This document shows positions 12,872 through 22,800 of a stretch of DNA of 44,518 bases, piece after piece (the stretch's first letter is position 1; each line of letters opens with the position of its first letter). The translations under genes were made by a program, and so were the position numbers. Source of the DNA: a virus; the IMG/VR virus record IMGVR_UViG_3300042555_000740, positions 1 to 44,518 of that record; one strand, written 5' to 3'. The notes beneath the pieces were generated by a model, which searched no databases, was not told the DNA's origin, and was given only the letters and a program-made list of their open reading frames with translations.

Positions 12872-14700
12872 ATAAATTCCTCTTCCATTTCAACTGGCAC
12901 TGGTGGCTGTGAAAATTGCACATACTTTCGCGGCTGCTCCCCGCGCTTTCCAATGAACTGCATTGCCTTTCCGCCCCAGTAGGTTCCGACATAGCCTTCC
13001 CACTCACCATTGCGCTGCTTGCTGCAGGTAAGGCGTGAGTCTGGTACTGCCAAAAGTTCAGGAGGGACTGGCTCATATTCTGAGAGCTCCGATATCTCGC
13101 GCTCTTTCTTCTTGTTTCGCCAGATCGTGAGGACGGTGTCCGCCAAGTCGGTAATAGAGCCAGAGCCCTTCACATCCATCTTGCCGGTTGGGGTTTCCTC
13201 GTTCTCGCCCTTCCGCGAGTGCGTGACTAAGAACACTGTGGTTCCAGTCGTGTTTTTGAAGTCGCATAGTTCCTCCATGAACCTCTTCTGAGCACTGTAG
13301 TCGTCGTCGTCGATACCACATTTAGACATGTTGTCTATGAAGAAAACATCAATACCGTATTTTTTCCGTGCATAACGGAAGACCTCAAGCATCTTCGTTG
13401 TCTTCGCTGTACCGACAAGATCGAACAGCCAAAGCTTCTGCGCATACCAGTCGATGCATGCGTTGGCATACGCCAGCGTAGGATCTCCCGTCGCTATACC
13501 AGCCGCTTGTCTGGTCAGACGTGTAAGCAAACGACGTGCTGGCATTTCCATCGAGGCGATGCACACGCGCTTGCTCTGAAGCATTGCGTCCAGCGCGAAC
13601 TGACCAGCGAGCTGTGACTTGCCGTGTCCGTTCACACCATTAAGGATCACGAGCTCCGCATCGCGGAACCGAAGATTACCTTCAAGATCTTCGATCAACG
13701 GCTGGAAGCCACGGCTGTCTTGGTCATTGTTGTACAGCTCACGAAGGATGTCCTCGCGATACTCCGTTGCACAGCGCAGCTCTTGCGGGTCGTAGCCAGC
13801 GGCTAGATCGCGGATGGCTTTGATGTCCACACCAGCTAACAAGCACTCGTTCAGATCCTTATGCGGAAGCGATGCGCGGATGCAGCGGTGAATGCCAAGC
13901 CTGTCGGCAATCTCTCGAGCAGCGAGCTCGCCCTCTTCATCCATGTCCAGAGCCAGCACGATGGTTTCAAATCGCTCGAGGTTGTCGTACTCGTTCTCGA
14001 TCCATTGCTGCTTTGCTCCCTTGCCTCCGCCGAATGGAACAGACAGCGCCGACACACCCATCTGGTACGCAGCCATCGCGTCGAACTCACCTTCAGTGAT
14101 CCATATCTCACGAGCATTTGGATCAACCGCTTGCCAGCCGAAGAGGCATGGCATCTGACCTGCGGATGTCGGCCCCTGCTTTTTCTTGTCGTTCATGTCG
14201 CGGAACTTAATCATCCGCGCTTCGCCAAGTGGATCTATGAAGGGAAACAGGATGCGGTCACCGTCAACAGCGATCCGAAACGCCTTCAGCGTGTTAGAAG
14301 TTAGGCCACGTTTTTCTAACAGGGAGGTCTCTATTGGAGTCGCCTCGACCTTGCGTGTCCGCTCTGGCCTGACAGGCGCTTGGTATTCCTTCTGCGTCGT
14401 GACGAACGACGGTCGCTCCACACCCAGCCACGAGCGAACCTCATCCATCGCCTCGATCAGACTTAGGCTATGCACCGCACGCCAGAGGTCGACTAAGTCG
14501 CCGCCACTCTCACCTGTTGAGAAGTCGCTCCACACGCCAGCCTTCGGGCCAGTCATGTGGATGCGCAGTGACTGCCCCTTCTCACCACCAAGCCCACCGA
14601 CGCAGTACTCAGATCCATTAACGATTCCCGCTGGCAGCAAGTGCCGTAGCGCTGGAAGCATGTTGCCGTTGAGGCGCTCCGATAATTCCCGTAAATCCAT
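12868..14700 (-). CDS. Replicative primase-helicase (Toprim plus DnaB-like helicase)
   Basis: A 610-residue protein of the T7 gp4 layout. An N-terminal primase region is followed by a Toprim domain (WITEGEFDAM near residue 200; IVLALDMDEEGE near 250). The DnaB/RecA-like helicase has a Walker A motif (LNGVNGHGKSQ near 355), a Walker B motif (VFFIDNMSKCG) and a sensor segment (VFLVTHSRK). It would unwind DNA and make primers at the phage fork. The N-terminal zinc domain is unusual: the first 75 residues contain only one cysteine instead of the CHC2/CxxC set, so zinc binding is lost. No DNA polymerase is visible nearby. Confidence 0.9.
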   Translation of the reverse strand: MDLRELSERLNGNMLPALRHLLPAGIVNGSEYCVGGLGGEKGQSLRIHMTGPKAGVWSDFSTGESGGDLVDLWRAVHSLSLIEAMDEVRSWLGVERPSFVTTQKEYQAPVRPERTRKVEATPIETSLLEKRGLTSNTLKAFRIAVDGDRILFPFIDPLGEARMIKFRDMNDKKKQGPTSAGQMPCLFGWQAVDPNAREIWITEGEFDAMAAYQMGVSALSVPFGGGKGAKQQWIENEYDNLERFETIVLALDMDEEGELAAREIADRLGIHRCIRASLPHKDLNECLLAGVDIKAIRDLAAGYDPQELRCATEYREDILRELYNNDQDSRGFQPLIEDLEGNLRFRDAELVILNGVNGHGKSQLAGQFALDAMLQSKRVCIASMEMPARRLLTRLTRQAAGIATGDPTLAYANACIDWYAQKLWLFDLVGTAKTTKMLEVFRYARKKYGIDVFFIDNMSKCGIDDDDYSAQKRFMEELCDFKNTTGTTVFLVTHSRKGENEETPTGKMDVKGSGSITDLADTVLTIWRNKKKEREISELSEYEPVPPELLAVPDSRLTCSKQRNGEWEGYVGTYWGGKAMQFIGKRGEQPRKYVQFSQPPVPVEMEEEFI

Positions 14701-16746: not shown

Positions 16747-17649
16747 ATGGAACAGAGAAGTGACGAGTGGTTTAAGGCGCGTGTAGGCGTCATCACTGGG
16801 AGTCGCGTCGGCGGTATCCTTGGAGTGAACCCATTTCAGAAAGCCGAAGACGTGATGCGCGATATGGTTCGTGAGCACTTCGGAGCTGATAAGGAATTCA
16901 CTGGCAACGCCGCCACAAATCATGGCGAGCGGATGGAGCCTGTGGCCTTGGCTTACTACGAGTCTGTGGCGGGTGTCGCAGTTACGCAGACAGGCATCGT
17001 CAAGCACGATGACTACGACTGGCTTGGCGCATCACCTGATGGACTGATCGGTCTTGATGGTGGCTTGGAGATCAAGTGTCCGTACTGGGCGAAGACGCCC
17101 TACTCCGTACACGAAAAGCCAAGTTATTACGCGCAGTGCCAGCACGTTATGGAGGTGTGCGACCTCCAGTGGATGGACTTCTTCTGCTACATCAGAGAGG
17201 ACTTGTATCTGCTGGAACGGCTAGACCGGAACACAACTTGGTTCGCCGACAACTTTCCAAAGCTTGAAGCATTCCGCAAAAAGTACCTCGAGATAATCGC
17301 GGATGAATCCAAGGCAAAACTTTATCTCGATACGGAACTCTCTGTCGTATCAAACGTGCGCAGTGAGTTGATGTCTGACCTATTTCTTCAGATCAAGGAG
17401 AAGGAGGCTGATATGGCTCCATTGAAGGAGGCATACGAAGCTCTCAAAAAGGAACTGGGCTCTGAGTTCGGCTCCTTCCAGACGGGCCGCATCAAGGTCT
17501 TGAAGGTAGAGAAGAAAGGGGCGGTAGATCATGCCGCCATTTATAAAACCGTAGACGTTGACAGTCTGCTAGCTGCAAAGGGTAAGTCCATTGAAGCTTT
17601 CAGAAAAGATCCTGTCATCAGCTACATCGTCAAAAGCATAGAGGATTGA
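16747..17649 (+). CDS. YqaJ-family viral recombinase exonuclease
   Basis: A 300-residue protein. RSDEWFKARVGVITGSRVGG is the family's N-terminal signature. GERMEPVALAYYE supplies the catalytic Glu, GASPDGLI the Asp and LEIKCPY the ExK motif. A Gln-containing helix follows (YYAQCQHVMEVC). It is related to lambda exonuclease and digests double-stranded ends 5'-3' to give single strands for the annealing protein. The last 100 residues form a coiled-coil extension common in phage members. Confidence 0.9.
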   Translation: MEQRSDEWFKARVGVITGSRVGGILGVNPFQKAEDVMRDMVREHFGADKEFTGNAATNHGERMEPVALAYYESVAGVAVTQTGIVKHDDYDWLGASPDGLIGLDGGLEIKCPYWAKTPYSVHEKPSYYAQCQHVMEVCDLQWMDFFCYIREDLYLLERLDRNTTWFADNFPKLEAFRKKYLEIIADESKAKLYLDTELSVVSNVRSELMSDLFLQIKEKEADMAPLKEAYEALKKELGSEFGSFQTGRIKVLKVEKKGAVDHAAIYKTVDVDSLLAAKGKSIEAFRKDPVISYIVKSIED

Positions 17650-17650
17650 C

Positions 17651-17833
17651 ATGGGACGACCGAGAAAAGACCACCAGAACCGTCTGGTTCAGACAACGAT
17701 TGACGACGTGATGTATCGCGCACTGTGCGAGATGTCCATTAAAGAAGACCGGCCTATCGCAGGCGTCGTGCGACAGGCAATCAATCTCTATCTTGCGCAC
17801 ATTGATCGTATGCGCAAAGTAGAACTCTCATAA
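17651..17833 (+). CDS. Ribbon-helix-helix DNA-binding protein
   Basis: A 60-residue protein. The basic N-terminus (MGRPRKDHQNRLVQTTIDDV) contains a short strand, followed by two helices (MYRALCEMSIKEDRP and IAGVVRQAINLYLAHI), the pattern of Arc/CopG-type ribbon-helix-helix repressors. It starts one base after the exonuclease stop. It is one of few visible regulators, so it may control this operon or the lysogeny switch, but no operator can be assigned. Confidence 0.75.
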   Translation: MGRPRKDHQNRLVQTTIDDVMYRALCEMSIKEDRPIAGVVRQAINLYLAHIDRMRKVELS

Positions 17834-17846
17834 GAAAGGCACAAGG

Positions 17847-18140
17847 ATGGCTTACGAACAAAAACCAAATACGTTTTCTCTTTTTCGCGACAGCGATGAG
17901 CGCATCGAGGAGCGCAAGAAGTTCTATCGCGAGAAGGATTGGGACCCTGAAGGCGTTCCTATCTACAGCGGAAGGATGCTTCTCGATACCGGCGAAGAGC
18001 TGAACATCGAAGCTCGCGTTATCGATGGAGCAAAAGGCAAGTTCTTTGCCGGTCGCGTGTGGAAGAAGAAGCTTGTTGACGCACCAGTGCAGCGTCAGGC
18101 ACCGCCACCACAAGACGATCTGGACGACGCACCGTTCTAA
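17847..18140 (+). CDS. Small protein with an SSB-like acidic C-terminal tail
   Basis: A 97-residue protein with AAAGG upstream. After a charged N-terminus (IEERKKFYREKDWDP) comes a short strand-rich stretch (GEELNIEARVIDG, FFAGRVWKKK), a Pro/Gln linker and the terminus DDLDDAPF. This tail closely resembles the acidic tip of bacterial SSB (DDDIPF), which binds recombination and replication partners. With no other SSB seen, it could be the phage single-strand-binding or loading factor. The fold of the body is not recognised, so the call rests on tail and context. Confidence 0.6.
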   Translation: MAYEQKPNTFSLFRDSDERIEERKKFYREKDWDPEGVPIYSGRMLLDTGEELNIEARVIDGAKGKFFAGRVWKKKLVDAPVQRQAPPPQDDLDDAPF

Positions 18141-18156
18141 TGAATAACAAATTGGG

Positions 18157-18180
18157 AGGGGTGGCTTGATGTCACCCCTT
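18157..18180 (+). terminator. Hairpin, weak terminator or attenuator
   Basis: AGGGGTG (18157-18163) pairs with CACCCCT (18173-18179) around a nine-base loop and is followed by only a short T-containing stretch. It lies 17 bases after the SSB-tailed gene and could partly end the recombination operon before the integrase region. Confidence 0.5.
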
Positions 18181-18194
18181 CTCAGGTAAATGGA

Positions 18195-18332
18195 ATGACA
18201 CTACTGATTGCTTGTTTGTTGATCCACGTAGGCGGCTTGCACTCTGGATGGTACCTGCTGGCTGTTTGGCTCTGGGCTACGAAGTGGTTCCTTAAATATT
18301 GGGGTTCTTTAACTGATGTTGGTGATTGTTAG
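18195..18332 (+). CDS. Very small hydrophobic protein, 45 residues
   Basis: The frame from ATG 18195 to TAG 18332 encodes a hydrophobic N-terminus (LLIACLLIHVGG) and a second Trp-rich hydrophobic stretch (YLLAVWLWATKWFL), suggesting one or two membrane segments. GGTAAATGGA upstream is a weak ribosome binding site. It overlaps the next gene by 17 bases. Function unknown. Confidence 0.5.
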   Translation: MTLLIACLLIHVGGLHSGWYLLAVWLWATKWFLKYWGSLTDVGDC

Positions 18333-18669
18333 AAACGAGGGATCTCTTGTTTATGGAGGCGAGAACCTGACGGAAGACTTGGAGCAGACCTTCGACCACG
18401 CAATTGGTGTGCGGAGGATCGGCCATAGTGCGGCTGGTGAGTTCGCTGAGATCTCCGTTAAGCGCGGAGATGGATCAGAGGTGCTCTTCCAACTGGATCA
18501 TGAACGCAAGGAGTACACCGTCGACGGTATCGTCGTGGTTGCGCTCGTTGGCTTTATTAAATGGAAAGCTGAAGACCGCGAGTGGCGAAAGCCAGCGGTC
18601 AGGCTTGGGTTTGACGCCCCCCGCTCCTACAGATTGGTACGGGATAACGCTATCAAGCGGACAGAATAA
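18316..18669 (+). CDS. Protein of unknown function, 117 residues
   Basis: The frame begins at ATG 18316 without a clear ribosome binding site, so coupling to the small upstream gene is possible. The sequence is beta-rich (GEFAEISVKRGDGSEVLFQL) with one hydrophobic patch (VDGIVVVALVGFIKW) and a basic C-terminus. No family is recognised. It lies between the recombination operon and the integrase. Confidence 0.6.
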   Translation: MLVIVRNEGSLVYGGENLTEDLEQTFDHAIGVRRIGHSAAGEFAEISVKRGDGSEVLFQLDHERKEYTVDGIVVVALVGFIKWKAEDREWRKPAVRLGFDAPRSYRLVRDNAIKRTE

Positions 18670-18714
18670 GTTAAATAGGAAGGTTGTGGTCGAAATGGAT
18701 TGTATGATGACGAC

Positions 18715-18751
18715 TGTGGGTGCCTCCAACCGTTCACCGATTGGAGGGTTT
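18715..18751 (+). promoter_or_regulatory. attP-like inverted repeat and SD-covering hairpin before int
   Basis: TGTGGGTGCCTCCAACC (18715-18731) is the exact reverse complement of 19706-19722 in attP. Within it CCTCCAA (18723-18729) pairs with TTGGAGG (18741-18747), and the latter contains the GGAGG ribosome binding site of the 18752 start. The segment may thus be both an integrase-binding site on DNA and a translation-blocking hairpin in RNA. Confidence 0.7.
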
Positions 18752-19579
18752 ATGGAAGGTAAGACTTGGGACGAAGCCGCAAAGCGGTGGCTGAATGGAC
18801 GGACCACCAAGCACATTAAGCAAGAGCAGCACTATATAGAGGTGCTCTCGCATTACTTGGGTGGCCTGCCTCTTGGCCGTATCACAAAGGGGGTGTTGGC
18901 GGATCTTCGCGATGACATGCTGAAGACCCGCGCTGTGTCTACCGTCAACCGTTACCTGACCGTTCTGCGGTCAGTGCTTAACATGGCGAGGGACGAGTGG
19001 GAATGGATCGACACCGTACCCAAGATCAAGAGGATGGAAGAGACCTCGAGGGTTCGGTACATCGACAAGGATGAAGCCCGTCGCCTGATCAGAGAGCTGC
19101 CGTCACATCTGAAGGACAAGGTCATCTTCGCCCTCACCACTGGACTTCGGGACGCCAACGTCCGAGAGCTCCGCTGGGAAGAGGTAGACCTTCAGAACAG
19201 GATGGTGACGATTGTCGGCGAGAAGATGAAGAACGGGAAGCCGCTCTCCATCCCTTTGAACGACACCGCCTACGACGTTCTCTGGAAACGGTTCAGGGCC
19301 AAGGACAAGAACGCTGAGTGGGTGTTTGCATATGGCGGCAGGCCAGTGCAGCGCAGCAATACGAAGGCGTTCAGGAAGGCTCTGAAGAGGGCTGGGATAG
19401 AGAACTTCAGATGGCACGACCTGCGGCATACGTGGGCCTCGTGGCACATCCAGAAGGGTACTCACACCGCAGCCGTTCGGGAGATGGGTGGTTGGTCGGA
19501 TGACAGGATGGTCCAACGCTATGCGCACTTGTCGACAAAGCACTTGCGCAAAGTGGCGGACAACGTCGGATCGCTGTAA
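18752..19579 (+). CDS. int: Tyrosine-type site-specific integrase
   Basis: A 275-residue protein from the 18752 start, which has GGAGGG immediately upstream; an upstream in-frame ATG at 18695 would add 19 residues. Residues 1-95 form a SAM-like core-binding domain (KTWDEAAKRWLNG, TVNRYLTVLRSVLNMA). The catalytic domain shows Arg in TTGLRDANVRELRW (near 131), HDLRHTWASWH (near 221), GGWSDDRM and the nucleophile Tyr in QRYAHLS (near 257). It would recombine attP (19661-19716) with a host tRNA-Gly gene. There is no separate arm-binding domain, as in short-type phage integrases. Confidence 0.95.
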   Translation: MEGKTWDEAAKRWLNGRTTKHIKQEQHYIEVLSHYLGGLPLGRITKGVLADLRDDMLKTRAVSTVNRYLTVLRSVLNMARDEWEWIDTVPKIKRMEETSRVRYIDKDEARRLIRELPSHLKDKVIFALTTGLRDANVRELRWEEVDLQNRMVTIVGEKMKNGKPLSIPLNDTAYDVLWKRFRAKDKNAEWVFAYGGRPVQRSNTKAFRKALKRAGIENFRWHDLRHTWASWHIQKGTHTAAVREMGGWSDDRMVQRYAHLSTKHLRKVADNVGSL

Positions 19580-19627
19580 GAAAATGGGGGCTGAATATCT
19601 GTGGATAAACAACCCCCGTATTCCATA

Positions 19628-19655
19628 ACTTCCGTGAAGAAAACCACGTAAGTTA
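19628..19655. repeat. Imperfect inverted repeat flanking attP
   Basis: AACTTCCGTG pairs with CACGTAAGTT with one mismatch across an eight-base spacer. It lies six bases from the tRNA-like core and may be an accessory protein or integrase site. CGGAAGT also recurs near 19786, on the other side of the core. Confidence 0.45.
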
Positions 19656-19660
19656 TTGAT

Positions 19661-19716
19661 TGGAGCGGGTAACGAGGCTCGAACTCGTGACCTCGACCTT
19701 GGCAAGGTTGGAGGCA
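19661..19716 (-). other. attP core: 3' half of a tRNA-Gly (GCC) gene
   Basis: The minus strand reads an anticodon arm CAACC-TTGCCAA-GGTCG (anticodon GCC), a T arm ACGAG-TTCGAGC-CTCGT and TACCCGC-T-CCA, the exact 3' end of an alphaproteobacterial-type tRNA-Gly. No D arm or matching 5' acceptor (GCGGGTA) lies upstream, so it is not a whole tRNA. A tRNA 3' half next to int is the classic attP: integration regenerates the host gene. The anticodon loop with flanking inverted half-sites is the likely crossover region. An intact attP implies that the window is the unintegrated form. Confidence 0.88.
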
Positions 19717-19722
19717 CCCACA
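19706..19722 (-). repeat. 17-bp inverted copy of the sequence before int
   Basis: GGTTGGAGGCACCCACA is the exact reverse complement of 18715-18731. It covers the outer anticodon-stem side of the tRNA-like core and the phage sequence beyond it. The two copies bracket the integrase gene. Confidence 0.9.
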
Positions 19723-19770
19723 ACGAGGAAACCCCTTGCCGCTCCAGTACTTACGCGATAAACCTTACGG

Positions 19771-19807
19771 GACTGTGATGCGCTTCGGAAGTCAGTGTAT
19801 CACAGTC
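19771..19807. repeat. Nine-bp inverted repeat between attP and the terminator
   Basis: GACTGTGAT (19771-19779) and ATCACAGTC (19799-19807) are perfect inverted copies with a 19-base spacer. It could bind a dimeric accessory factor for recombination or form a hairpin. Bases 19580-19660 hold no gene. Confidence 0.55.
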
Positions 19808-19820
19808 ACTTTTCCAGAAT

Positions 19821-19859
19821 AAAAAGCCCCCGCTCCTAATGTGGTTCGGGGGCTTTTTT
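19821..19859. terminator. Bidirectional rho-independent terminator
   Basis: AAAAAGCCCCCG and CGGGGGCTTTTT form a perfect stem around 14 bases, with an A-run on one side and a T-run on the other. It therefore terminates both the rightward integrase region and the leftward giant virion gene, whose stop codon is at 19861. Confidence 0.9.
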
Positions 19860-19860
19860 A

Positions 19861-22800
19861 TTAGCGCTTCTTGTAGTCGGCTATCTGCTGATTGAACTCG
19901 ACCATAAGCATCTGCATTTCCTCAGTGACGTAGTCGATCTCTTGCTGCGACGCACCATCTTCTTTGAGCTGCTTCTTCTCCTTGCGCAGCTTGCTGATGT
20001 CGCTCTCGTATTCCTGCGCCGCATCAAAGAACTCAGCCTCTGGGTAATCTTCGAAGTACGAGGTCGTGTCCTTGCCGTCCTCCTCCATGCCTTCGACCGT
20101 CTTCTTGTGGCCGTTCATTTCCTTGATGCCGTCATAGAACCGGCCAGAGATAGCTGAGGCCTCGTTGGCGTCACCGATCATCCGACCCACCACTGGGATC
20201 TTGTAGTTGGGCAGGTCTTCACCAGTGACCGCAGCTTGCGCTGTAGCCATAGTGTTGAGGGCTAGTCGACCGACGCCGCCAGTTGCCTGTCCGATCAGGT
20301 AGTCGATTTGGTCGCCGGTCGGGCTGAGTGTTCCAGCGGTATACCCGTTGCCACCCGTTACATAATCTATGGCTCGAGCAACATAGTCGCCAACAGCGCT
20401 GACACCTTCCTTGTTCCGCTCGTACCCTGCCGTAGGGTCAAGACTGTTGAAGTCCTTGCGTGCGATATCACGACCGGCGAAGTCCTTGTTTTCAGCTAGA
20501 GCTGCCAGAGGATCCAGCACCGTTGGAGTGACGGTCTGAAGTGACAGGCCAGCGTTACCGATTGGGTTGAAGGAGTCCGCCATCATTCCCATCAAGCCAA
20601 TGATCTGTTCCGGAGCCTTTTCACCACCAGACATGAAGAATTCCACCGACCGGCGTCCAAAAGACGGGATGACGTGCAGGCCCAATGGCATAGGAATGGC
20701 GAAGTACTTCTTGCCCCCAAGCGGGATCACGAGGTTCTTGTCCTTCAACCAGTCTGGGATCTCGTCGTCGATACCGGCTGCGGCCAGAGCCACCGCCTGA
20801 GCAACGCCAAGGAGCAGACCACCGGCAATGATCTTCTTGCCAGCCGGTCCCTTCAGGGTTTCGGCTAGACGTGCGGTACCCTGAACACTGGCGTTGAAGA
20901 AGGCATAGAAGGCACCCGCCTGAGATCCAACCACACCCTTGCGGTTGAAGTTGACGGTGAGGTTCTTGGCAATGCTTGCCGCCTCAGCCTTGGACAGGCC
21001 AGCTTCCTTAGCTGTCTTATAAGCAGACAGGCGGACGCCGTTCTCGATTGCCTCGTTGAAGTCTGACAGCCAGTCAAAGACCGGACCACCGACCTTGGTC
21101 GCCACTTGGCGAAGCTTGCTACCGCCAGTCAGCTCGATCTCGATTGCGTCTGCACGATCCTGTGAGGTGGTGAACAGGTCGCGGAAACCGGTCTTGCCAC
21201 CCTCGAGCTCGAACTCATCAGCAAGCGCTGCCCAATTTGTGGTGGCTGTCTTACCGCTGCGTTCCGACCGTAGATCTCGATACATGCCCAACGCCGCAGG
21301 CAGTGCATTGCCGATCACCTGCCGCTGCTTACCAGCGATAGCTGTCGAGGAGAGGTTGATCGATGCGCCACCAAGGTCTCGCAGTAAGTTGTAGAGACCG
21401 AAGGCAGGGTTGTACTGCGTGTTGATCGACGCGAAGTAGCGAGTGACCTTAGCAATGCCGCTGACGAAGGCACCCATCTGGAATGCATCGATGTTCTTCA
21501 GCGCCGTCACCATACGCTGCGAGCGTGGGTTGCGGCTGTTGAAGGCGATGAACTTGTCTTCGCCATTGATGCGGGTAGCCATGACAAACGGCGAGCTCAT
21601 GAACAGGCTGTTCGGACGCTTCACAAGACGACCGCTGTTGGTGTCCATGTAGCTGGTCATTGGAGCTCCCATGACGTTCTCTGCGTCAGCGGGGTCCATG
21701 CCGAAGTCGATCAGCTTCTGCTTAGCTTTAGCTGCGTCAGCGCTCTTAGGATCGATGACGAACCAGAACGAGTCATTCGGATTTTGCAGGGCGAGTGCGG
21801 TCAGCGCATTGCCAACGCGATTGCGTTCGCCGCGACTGATTACCCGCTCACGCTGCATTGCAATGTTGGCAAGGATGTCGACGACGCCAAGCTCTGAGCC
21901 AAGTGCGCGACGGGAAGAAGATCCACGAACCGACATGCCCTGACCACTTGATCCTGCACCGCCATCCTCGAAGCCTTCACGCTGCAGAGGGACGTAGTTC
22001 TTGTACGTCTTATTCCAGTTGTCGATGGTCTCTTGGGTCTCGAGGCCATACTTAACCATCATGTCTTGCGTGCTCTTCGTGATGGCGTCAACACGATCAG
22101 CCAGCTTCTCGAGCTGCTTACGACGAGCGTTTGGCAAACCTGCGAGATAGCTATCAGCCGCTGCATCAGACATGCCTGAGCCATTGTCCTGCATGTCCGG
22201 ATTGATCTTACGGATCTGCGCGTTCCGCTCTTTGGCGTGACGTGCATGCAGGAACTTGTCGAGCGTCTCGAGAGGGACGCCCTTAGTCTTCATTTCCTCG
22301 AGCAGTGGGTTCAGCTCACGCTGGACGAAGTCCTTGGCACGCTTTGCAGCGCGACCATGAAACAGCTCTTCGGCACGATAGACGTCGGTCGTTTCACTGA
22401 TCCTGCCGCCAGCATCCTTAATGTTCTTCTGAATCCGTTTAACGTCGATCAGCTTGTCCTGAAGGTTATAGATAACCTCATCAAGCTTGTCTGGAGCTTC
22501 GCCGCCAAAGTTGTAGTTGTCGCTGCGGAACGAGTAAGCAGGACGCAGAGCCTGTGGCCCAGCCTGCGCATTTCCACTACCGCGACGGCCAGAGTACTGA
22601 ACATCGCCACCCTGCGCAGCCACGGCTTGGTCGTAGCTGTCGGTGTACTCACCCTCGTCTGGGCTATACAAGCCCTCGCGATTCTGATCGTAGGCCATAA
22701 AGACAACGTCAGGCTCACCGCCATTGAATGCCTTGAACGTGTCTTTGTTCCAGTCATCAGGCTTGAACTCGTCATTCCAGCGCATGCGAGCGACGGCCTT

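Follow-up and report, generated by a model that had tools for sequence, protein, structure and literature searches.

Why should a piece of a phage attachment site occur a second time, inverted, in front of the integrase gene (int)? The question is raised by the window (the whole stretch of viral DNA analysed here, 44,518 nucleotides long), in which, as an earlier note had reported, the 17-bp sequence TGTGGGTGCCTCCAACC at 18715-18731 (+) is the exact reverse complement of 19706-19722. The answer that we consider rather probable is that a helix between the 5' and 3' parts of the int mRNA reports whether attP is intact and, in the clade of the window phage, frees the Shine-Dalgarno sequence (SD) before integration and leaves Int off afterwards. 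It builds on complementarity, covariation, co-loss with attP, separation by integration and recurrence in other integrase lineages, all of which can be read in the sequences. The features concerned are the following.

18677..18683 (+): AGGAAGG, from its sequence a possible SD for an alternative start farther upstream in the same frame
18715..18731 (+): segment of the leader that complements the attP flank, with the anti-SD inside it; exact 17-bp match, covarying with attP in relatives
18723..18729 (+): anti-SD CCTCCAA, the 7-nt complement of 18741-18747
18741..18747 (+): TTGGAGG, which contains the int SD GGAGG (18743-18747), 5-9 nt before ATG 18752
18752..19579 (+): int, a tyrosine integrase of 275 aa (PF00589, 4.5e-32; phrog_1, 8.9e-58)
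19586..19617 (+): GGGGG/CCCCC hairpin lying after the int stop and before attP; in some relatives it resembles a terminator
about 19661..19707 (-): 3' half of tRNA-Gly(GCC), the attP identity block, antisense on the + strand, 90-92% identical to tRNA-Gly genes
19699..19705 (+): presumed 7-bp overlap TTGGCAA (anticodon loop), the expected place of strand exchange, inferred from the anatomy of tRNAs and from tyrosine integrases already known
19706..19722 (+): distal flank of attP; it complements the leader and shifts to the other prophage end upon integration
19821..19862 (+): inverted repeat with a T run (12-bp perfect stem, CTTTTTT), the likely end of the int transcript

The two copies bracket int, as had been claimed, and the estimate that they are improbable as a chance event holds: with up to three mismatches allowed, the 17-bp element has just two sites in 44.5 kb, against an average of 0.10 in shuffles. 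The upstream copy, described as lying at the start of int, is indeed near the gene but is located in its leader, ending 20 nt before ATG 18752. The downstream copy does span the edge of the tRNA-derived part of attP, since it begins at 19706, the base immediately after the presumed overlap, and the tRNA-Gly part runs to about 19707. As RNA, the leader and the attP flank yield -38.4 kcal/mol, a value equalled by none of the 4416 other contig windows (z -6.7). Fourteen bases of the distal attP arm (19722-19735) occur again at 13190-13203 (-), inside a primase/helicase gene, and a similar match is present in three relatives; this recurrence is probably due to chance in a conserved gene.

The SD best supports ATG 18752 as the int start. 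An alternative would be ATG 18695, or the GTG directly before it, ATG 18695 adding 19 residues encoded through the leader (18695-18751). This longer frame is retained in L006, L011 and L032 but is unusable in L055, and the upstream codon is therefore probably not the main start. No sigma-70 promoter was found in 17600-20000, and the leader start sites used throughout are predicted ones. At the other end, attP begins about 80 bp past the int stop, outside the coding region, and int reads toward the tRNA half. Since the transcript likely ends at 19821-19862, int mRNA made from attP DNA should hold both complementary segments. The hairpin between int and attP carries a T run in the L007 version. 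In its loop lies a perfect DnaA-box sequence, TGTGGATAA (19600-19608), which is retained in several close relatives and absent in L016 and L032.

Does the leader copy follow attP when attP changes? The relatives were taken from IMG/VR, with integrases 43-100% identical to that of the window, and the homologue check proposed in the earlier note gave a striking result: the leader copy tracks attP, every relative with a tRNA-Gly attP behind int having a leader complementary to its own attP flank. The lineage types read as follows.

Window type: leader TGTGGGTGCCTCCAACC, attP flank GGTTGGAGGCACCCACA
L011: leader AGTGGGTGCCTCCGACC; attP ends CCCACT
L016: leader GTGGACGCCTCC, attP flank GGAGGCGTCCAC
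L032: leader GTGGGTGCCTCCAGCC, attP flank GGTTGGAGGCACCCAC
L055: leader TGCTGGAGCC..CGAC, attP flank GTCG..GGCTCCAGCA, the flank being largely different in sequence

Over five lineage types, counted on five hand-aligned sequences with one gap entered as N, 95% of the leader-attP pairs are standard, against 35-45% paired in slid controls. Six of the 17 pairs have changed on both sides, and all one-sided changes give G.U. Cognate pairing beats most non-cognate combinations, clearly so for the divergent L016 and L055. Scans for the attP pattern returned one divergent relative (L032), the rest being already known. Together these comparisons leave leader-attP pairing at the RNA level well supported as far as sequence goes. 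A chance match, or a recent duplication without function, would explain a single 17-bp match, which taken alone could be a copy event; because of the covariation, with compensatory divergence in several lineages, and with recurrence in unrelated phages, such an origin is very unlikely.

The leader element also disappears with attP. CCTCC is present in all attP-bearing relatives and missing from those without attP, L010 excepted, and the arrangement CCTCC...GGAGG is retained across relatives with varying loop lengths. The attP-less L009, L013-L015, L019, L020 and L052 are without the leader element, and in L010, which has lost attP, it is degraded, TGTTAGTG replacing TGTGGGTG. The L010 contig keeps a remnant of the distal arm, the sole such trace among the contigs of attP-less relatives that were scanned. 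No attP was found elsewhere in the records of L009, L014, L020 and L052, which may be fragments. In the integrase tree, the attP-less rows are scattered in separate places.

Some further observations concern these attachment sites. Both edges of the L010 deletion read AGAAAA. In L009, L010, L013-L015, L019, L020 and L052, the integrase is apparently intact with no attP behind it. In L007 and L008, attP contains another tRNA-Gly 3' half, with several base changes, next to an unchanged leader and an integrase that is 96% identical; this suggests a switch of host or tRNA allele. The whole attP of L018 (G008:11234-11312) is recognized as a tRNA by RF00005 (29 bits), as if its distal arm mimicked a tRNA 5' half.

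Could the two copies be protein-binding sites on DNA? The earlier note had proposed that integrase binds its own 5' region through core-type half-sites and represses itself; more broadly, integrase (through core-type sites, or arm-type sites in other phages) or an accessory protein would bind both copies, with int autoregulated via the leader copy. There is precedent in KplE1 intS and other tRNA-associated integrases, which are negatively autoregulated, in KplE1 through att sites overlapping the promoter (Panis et al. 2010, PMC2951348), and one possible reading of the window leader is a core-type site, CCTCCAACC-GTTCACC-GATTGGAGG, with two half-sites and a 7-bp spacer. However, this geometry is lost in L011, L016, L032 and L055, while complementarity and the SD hairpin are retained there, which is why core-type binding with autorepression is not favoured. 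The covarying bases lie mainly outside the tRNA-constrained inner half-site, many of them in the half of the 17 bp that is outer with respect to the crossover, where the copies differ, the change is mostly G.U-compatible, and the matches seen across many phages are almost exclusively inverted. Moreover, arm sites repeat whereas the motif is single in attP, the P22-like motif stands apart from the repeated arm motifs GTCCCA/GTGTCG, and the window integrase opens straight with its core-binding part (the phrog_1 match begins at profile position 164), with no arm-binding domain seen. We thus judge DNA sites of either type an improbable explanation. An RNA helix, if real, would account for a covarying part of the attP arm that is no repeated protein site.

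An arm-type site in the leader was also considered as a candidate and rejected, the motif occurring once in attP and its best other copy having 4.47 mismatches against 4.49 in shuffles. The suggestion that recombination between the copies inverts int found no support, as the 7-bp spacers differ (TTGGCAA versus GTTCACC) and an inverted copy was seen in no relative.

We propose that the two copies pair over a long range within the int mRNA, each forming one strand of an RNA helix. On free (attP) DNA, the int transcript would cross attP and thus carry a 3' part complementary to its own leader. Within the window clade, this leader segment would otherwise fold onto the int SD, and pairing of attP RNA with the segment would open the SD. 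Upon integration, the distal attP half would come to lie at the other prophage end and int mRNA would be made without the complement, the SD hairpin re-forming and Int synthesis dropping. Since the message would lose the distal attP half on integration, it would report whether attP is intact. What we infer here is that transcription continues through attP, that the two segments pair in the cell, and that the effect is activation before integration.

How far do predicted structures agree with this scheme? In folds of full-length mRNA, leader-attP pairing has a probability of 0.78-0.99 in four lineages, and cutting the transcript at the overlap returns the SD to pairing with the leader. In full-length folds of L016 and L055, the long-range leader-attP pairing was not seen. 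For the window, folding puts the cost of opening the int SD at 6.9 kcal/mol, falling to 3.6 kcal/mol with the leader segment held; when the segment is blocked, five of six lineages show a saving of 1.8-3.6 kcal/mol, with no gain in L032. These models suggest that in the window clade the SD is probably exposed while attP is intact. As a general rule, leader-SD pairing is not significant across all phages (p 0.17), and SD release may therefore be special to the window clade.

The same helix might act in reverse, pairing destabilising or blocking the int mRNA of the free phage, for instance by making it a substrate for RNase III, and integration relieving this, so that Int is made for excision. 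Such an outcome would fit the topology, which is that of lambda sib, an element that limits Int through its position downstream (PMC2951348 and PMC6379469), and SD release is not general over all phages. In the window clade, however, the pairing stops 20 nt short of the start codon and is in competition with the SD-masking hairpin, and should therefore expose rather than block the SD. Moreover, the attP-less L013, L052 and L019 have plain strong SDs with no hairpin, which is what a link between hairpin and attP would predict. We therefore regard the reverse outcome as unlikely; in phages beyond the window clade, an effect of opposite sign, as with lambda sib, is possible.

The timing of phage integrases is understood mainly from lambda. 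There, int is retroregulated by sib (Schindler and Echols 1981, cited in PMC6379469). The element described here would likewise be a cis RNA element of the int transcript that lies beyond att, is lost on integration and controls Int: 19706-19722 is beyond the overlap, and the complement is absent beside integrated int genes and present at the far att end. Unlike sib, which is a local RNase III hairpin, it would pair with the int leader, its place is right at the attP overlap or within the distal arm, and its effect in the window clade is probably activating. The coupling of attachment site and int expression in tRNA-integrating elements would be shared with KplE1, but KplE1 has its att across the int promoter, with Int/TorI as DNA-binding proteins, whereas here attP lies behind int, which reads toward the tRNA. 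In the integration-dependent immunity of mycobacteriophage BPs, attP forms part of the repressor coding sequence, so that the protein is truncated upon integration (PMC4557955). Displacing half of attP would similarly alter the product of a phage gene here, although attP follows the int stop codon and would act on int via RNA pairing. In a toehold-type switch, a leader hairpin masks the SD, and a trigger pairs with the 5' extension of the hairpin and invades it. Window-clade folds predict something similar, a hairpin over the SD that a trigger would disrupt, while over all phages leader-SD pairing is not significant; the trigger would be the attachment site on the same message, present or absent by DNA rearrangement.

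We found no description of int leader-attP complementarity in the literature searched, whose coverage excluded most subscription journals. The topology is known from lambda retroregulation, while an int leader paired with the attachment site is apparently undescribed. Neither KplE1-type autoregulation nor binding at core or arm sites matches what is seen here, and the novel part would be the general form of this pairing. If true, it would constitute feedback without a regulatory protein, the reaction consuming attP and thereby altering integrase synthesis. It would also be relevant to tools with attP and int on one transcript.

Is such complementarity found with other integrases? We scanned all the integrase loci that were fetched, including tRNA-attP integrases unrelated to that of the window. 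Among 62 non-redundant viral (free-phage) loci, 16 have inverted matches (19 matches in total) and there are 2 direct-orientation matches, with 1.3 expected from mismatched pairs; 39 host-genome loci, in which int is expected to be integrated, gave 1 match versus 1.3 expected. Non-redundant loci share ancestry, and the matches, at -55 to -26 in the leader and about 77-155 nt past the int stop, were sought in a zone of 60-170 nt that was set after the first hits. In a second batch, 5 of 14 loci matched against 0.2 expected. Matched runs reach 16-17 nt with G.U counted. Interior mismatches (10 G.U versus 2 A.C) show a modest G.U preference, which is clear solely for them, the numbers being 36 G.U and 33 A.C with run ends included. 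The phages with matches include the following.

P22: leader 22551-22539, GTGAGCGCGGGTG, against 21253-21241, TACCTGCGCTCAC; 13 bp
Edwardsiella GF-2 and Edno5: 14 nt
Burkholderia Momento: 17 nt
Cronobacter ENT47670: 13 nt
Erwinia vB_EhrS_59 and Klebsiella klb_E: 11 nt
Shewanella QDWS: 10 nt

In four P22-like types, 4 of 13 pairs have changed on both sides. Nothing comparable is present in Lambda, P-SSP7 or BZS1. A tRNA-core repeat served to locate the other att end of 11 integrated elements, and the distal arm there is complementary to the int leader more often than expected by chance (combined p 1.4e-4; 0.99 in direct orientation), if not in all of them: the integrated element G030 has no distal-arm complement.

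This retention of the complement at the distal att end, together with A/T-rich stretches before it in several arms, would also suit a short RNA transcribed from the distal attP arm, rather than the int 3' UTR, that pairs with the int leader in trans in the free phage or the lysogen. A cis message accounts for the position without further parts such as a distal-arm promoter, making a trans-acting RNA in our estimation a poor prospect. For pairing in cis, we put the chances at about even that in many tRNA-attP temperate phages and integrative elements, P22 among them, the int leader pairs with the distal attP arm and Int synthesis is tied to a whole attP. If true, this would be a general control of integration, directly testable in P22.

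Two minor observations were made on these loci. An IHF-like consensus, WATCARNNNNTTR, stands just before the leader-complementary segment in the distal arms of L351, L227, L075, L114, L047 and L367. In addition, the leader can pair with the int start codon in L108 (TGTAGTGAC/GTCACTACA) and in P22 (L495; TGACAT/ATGTCA).
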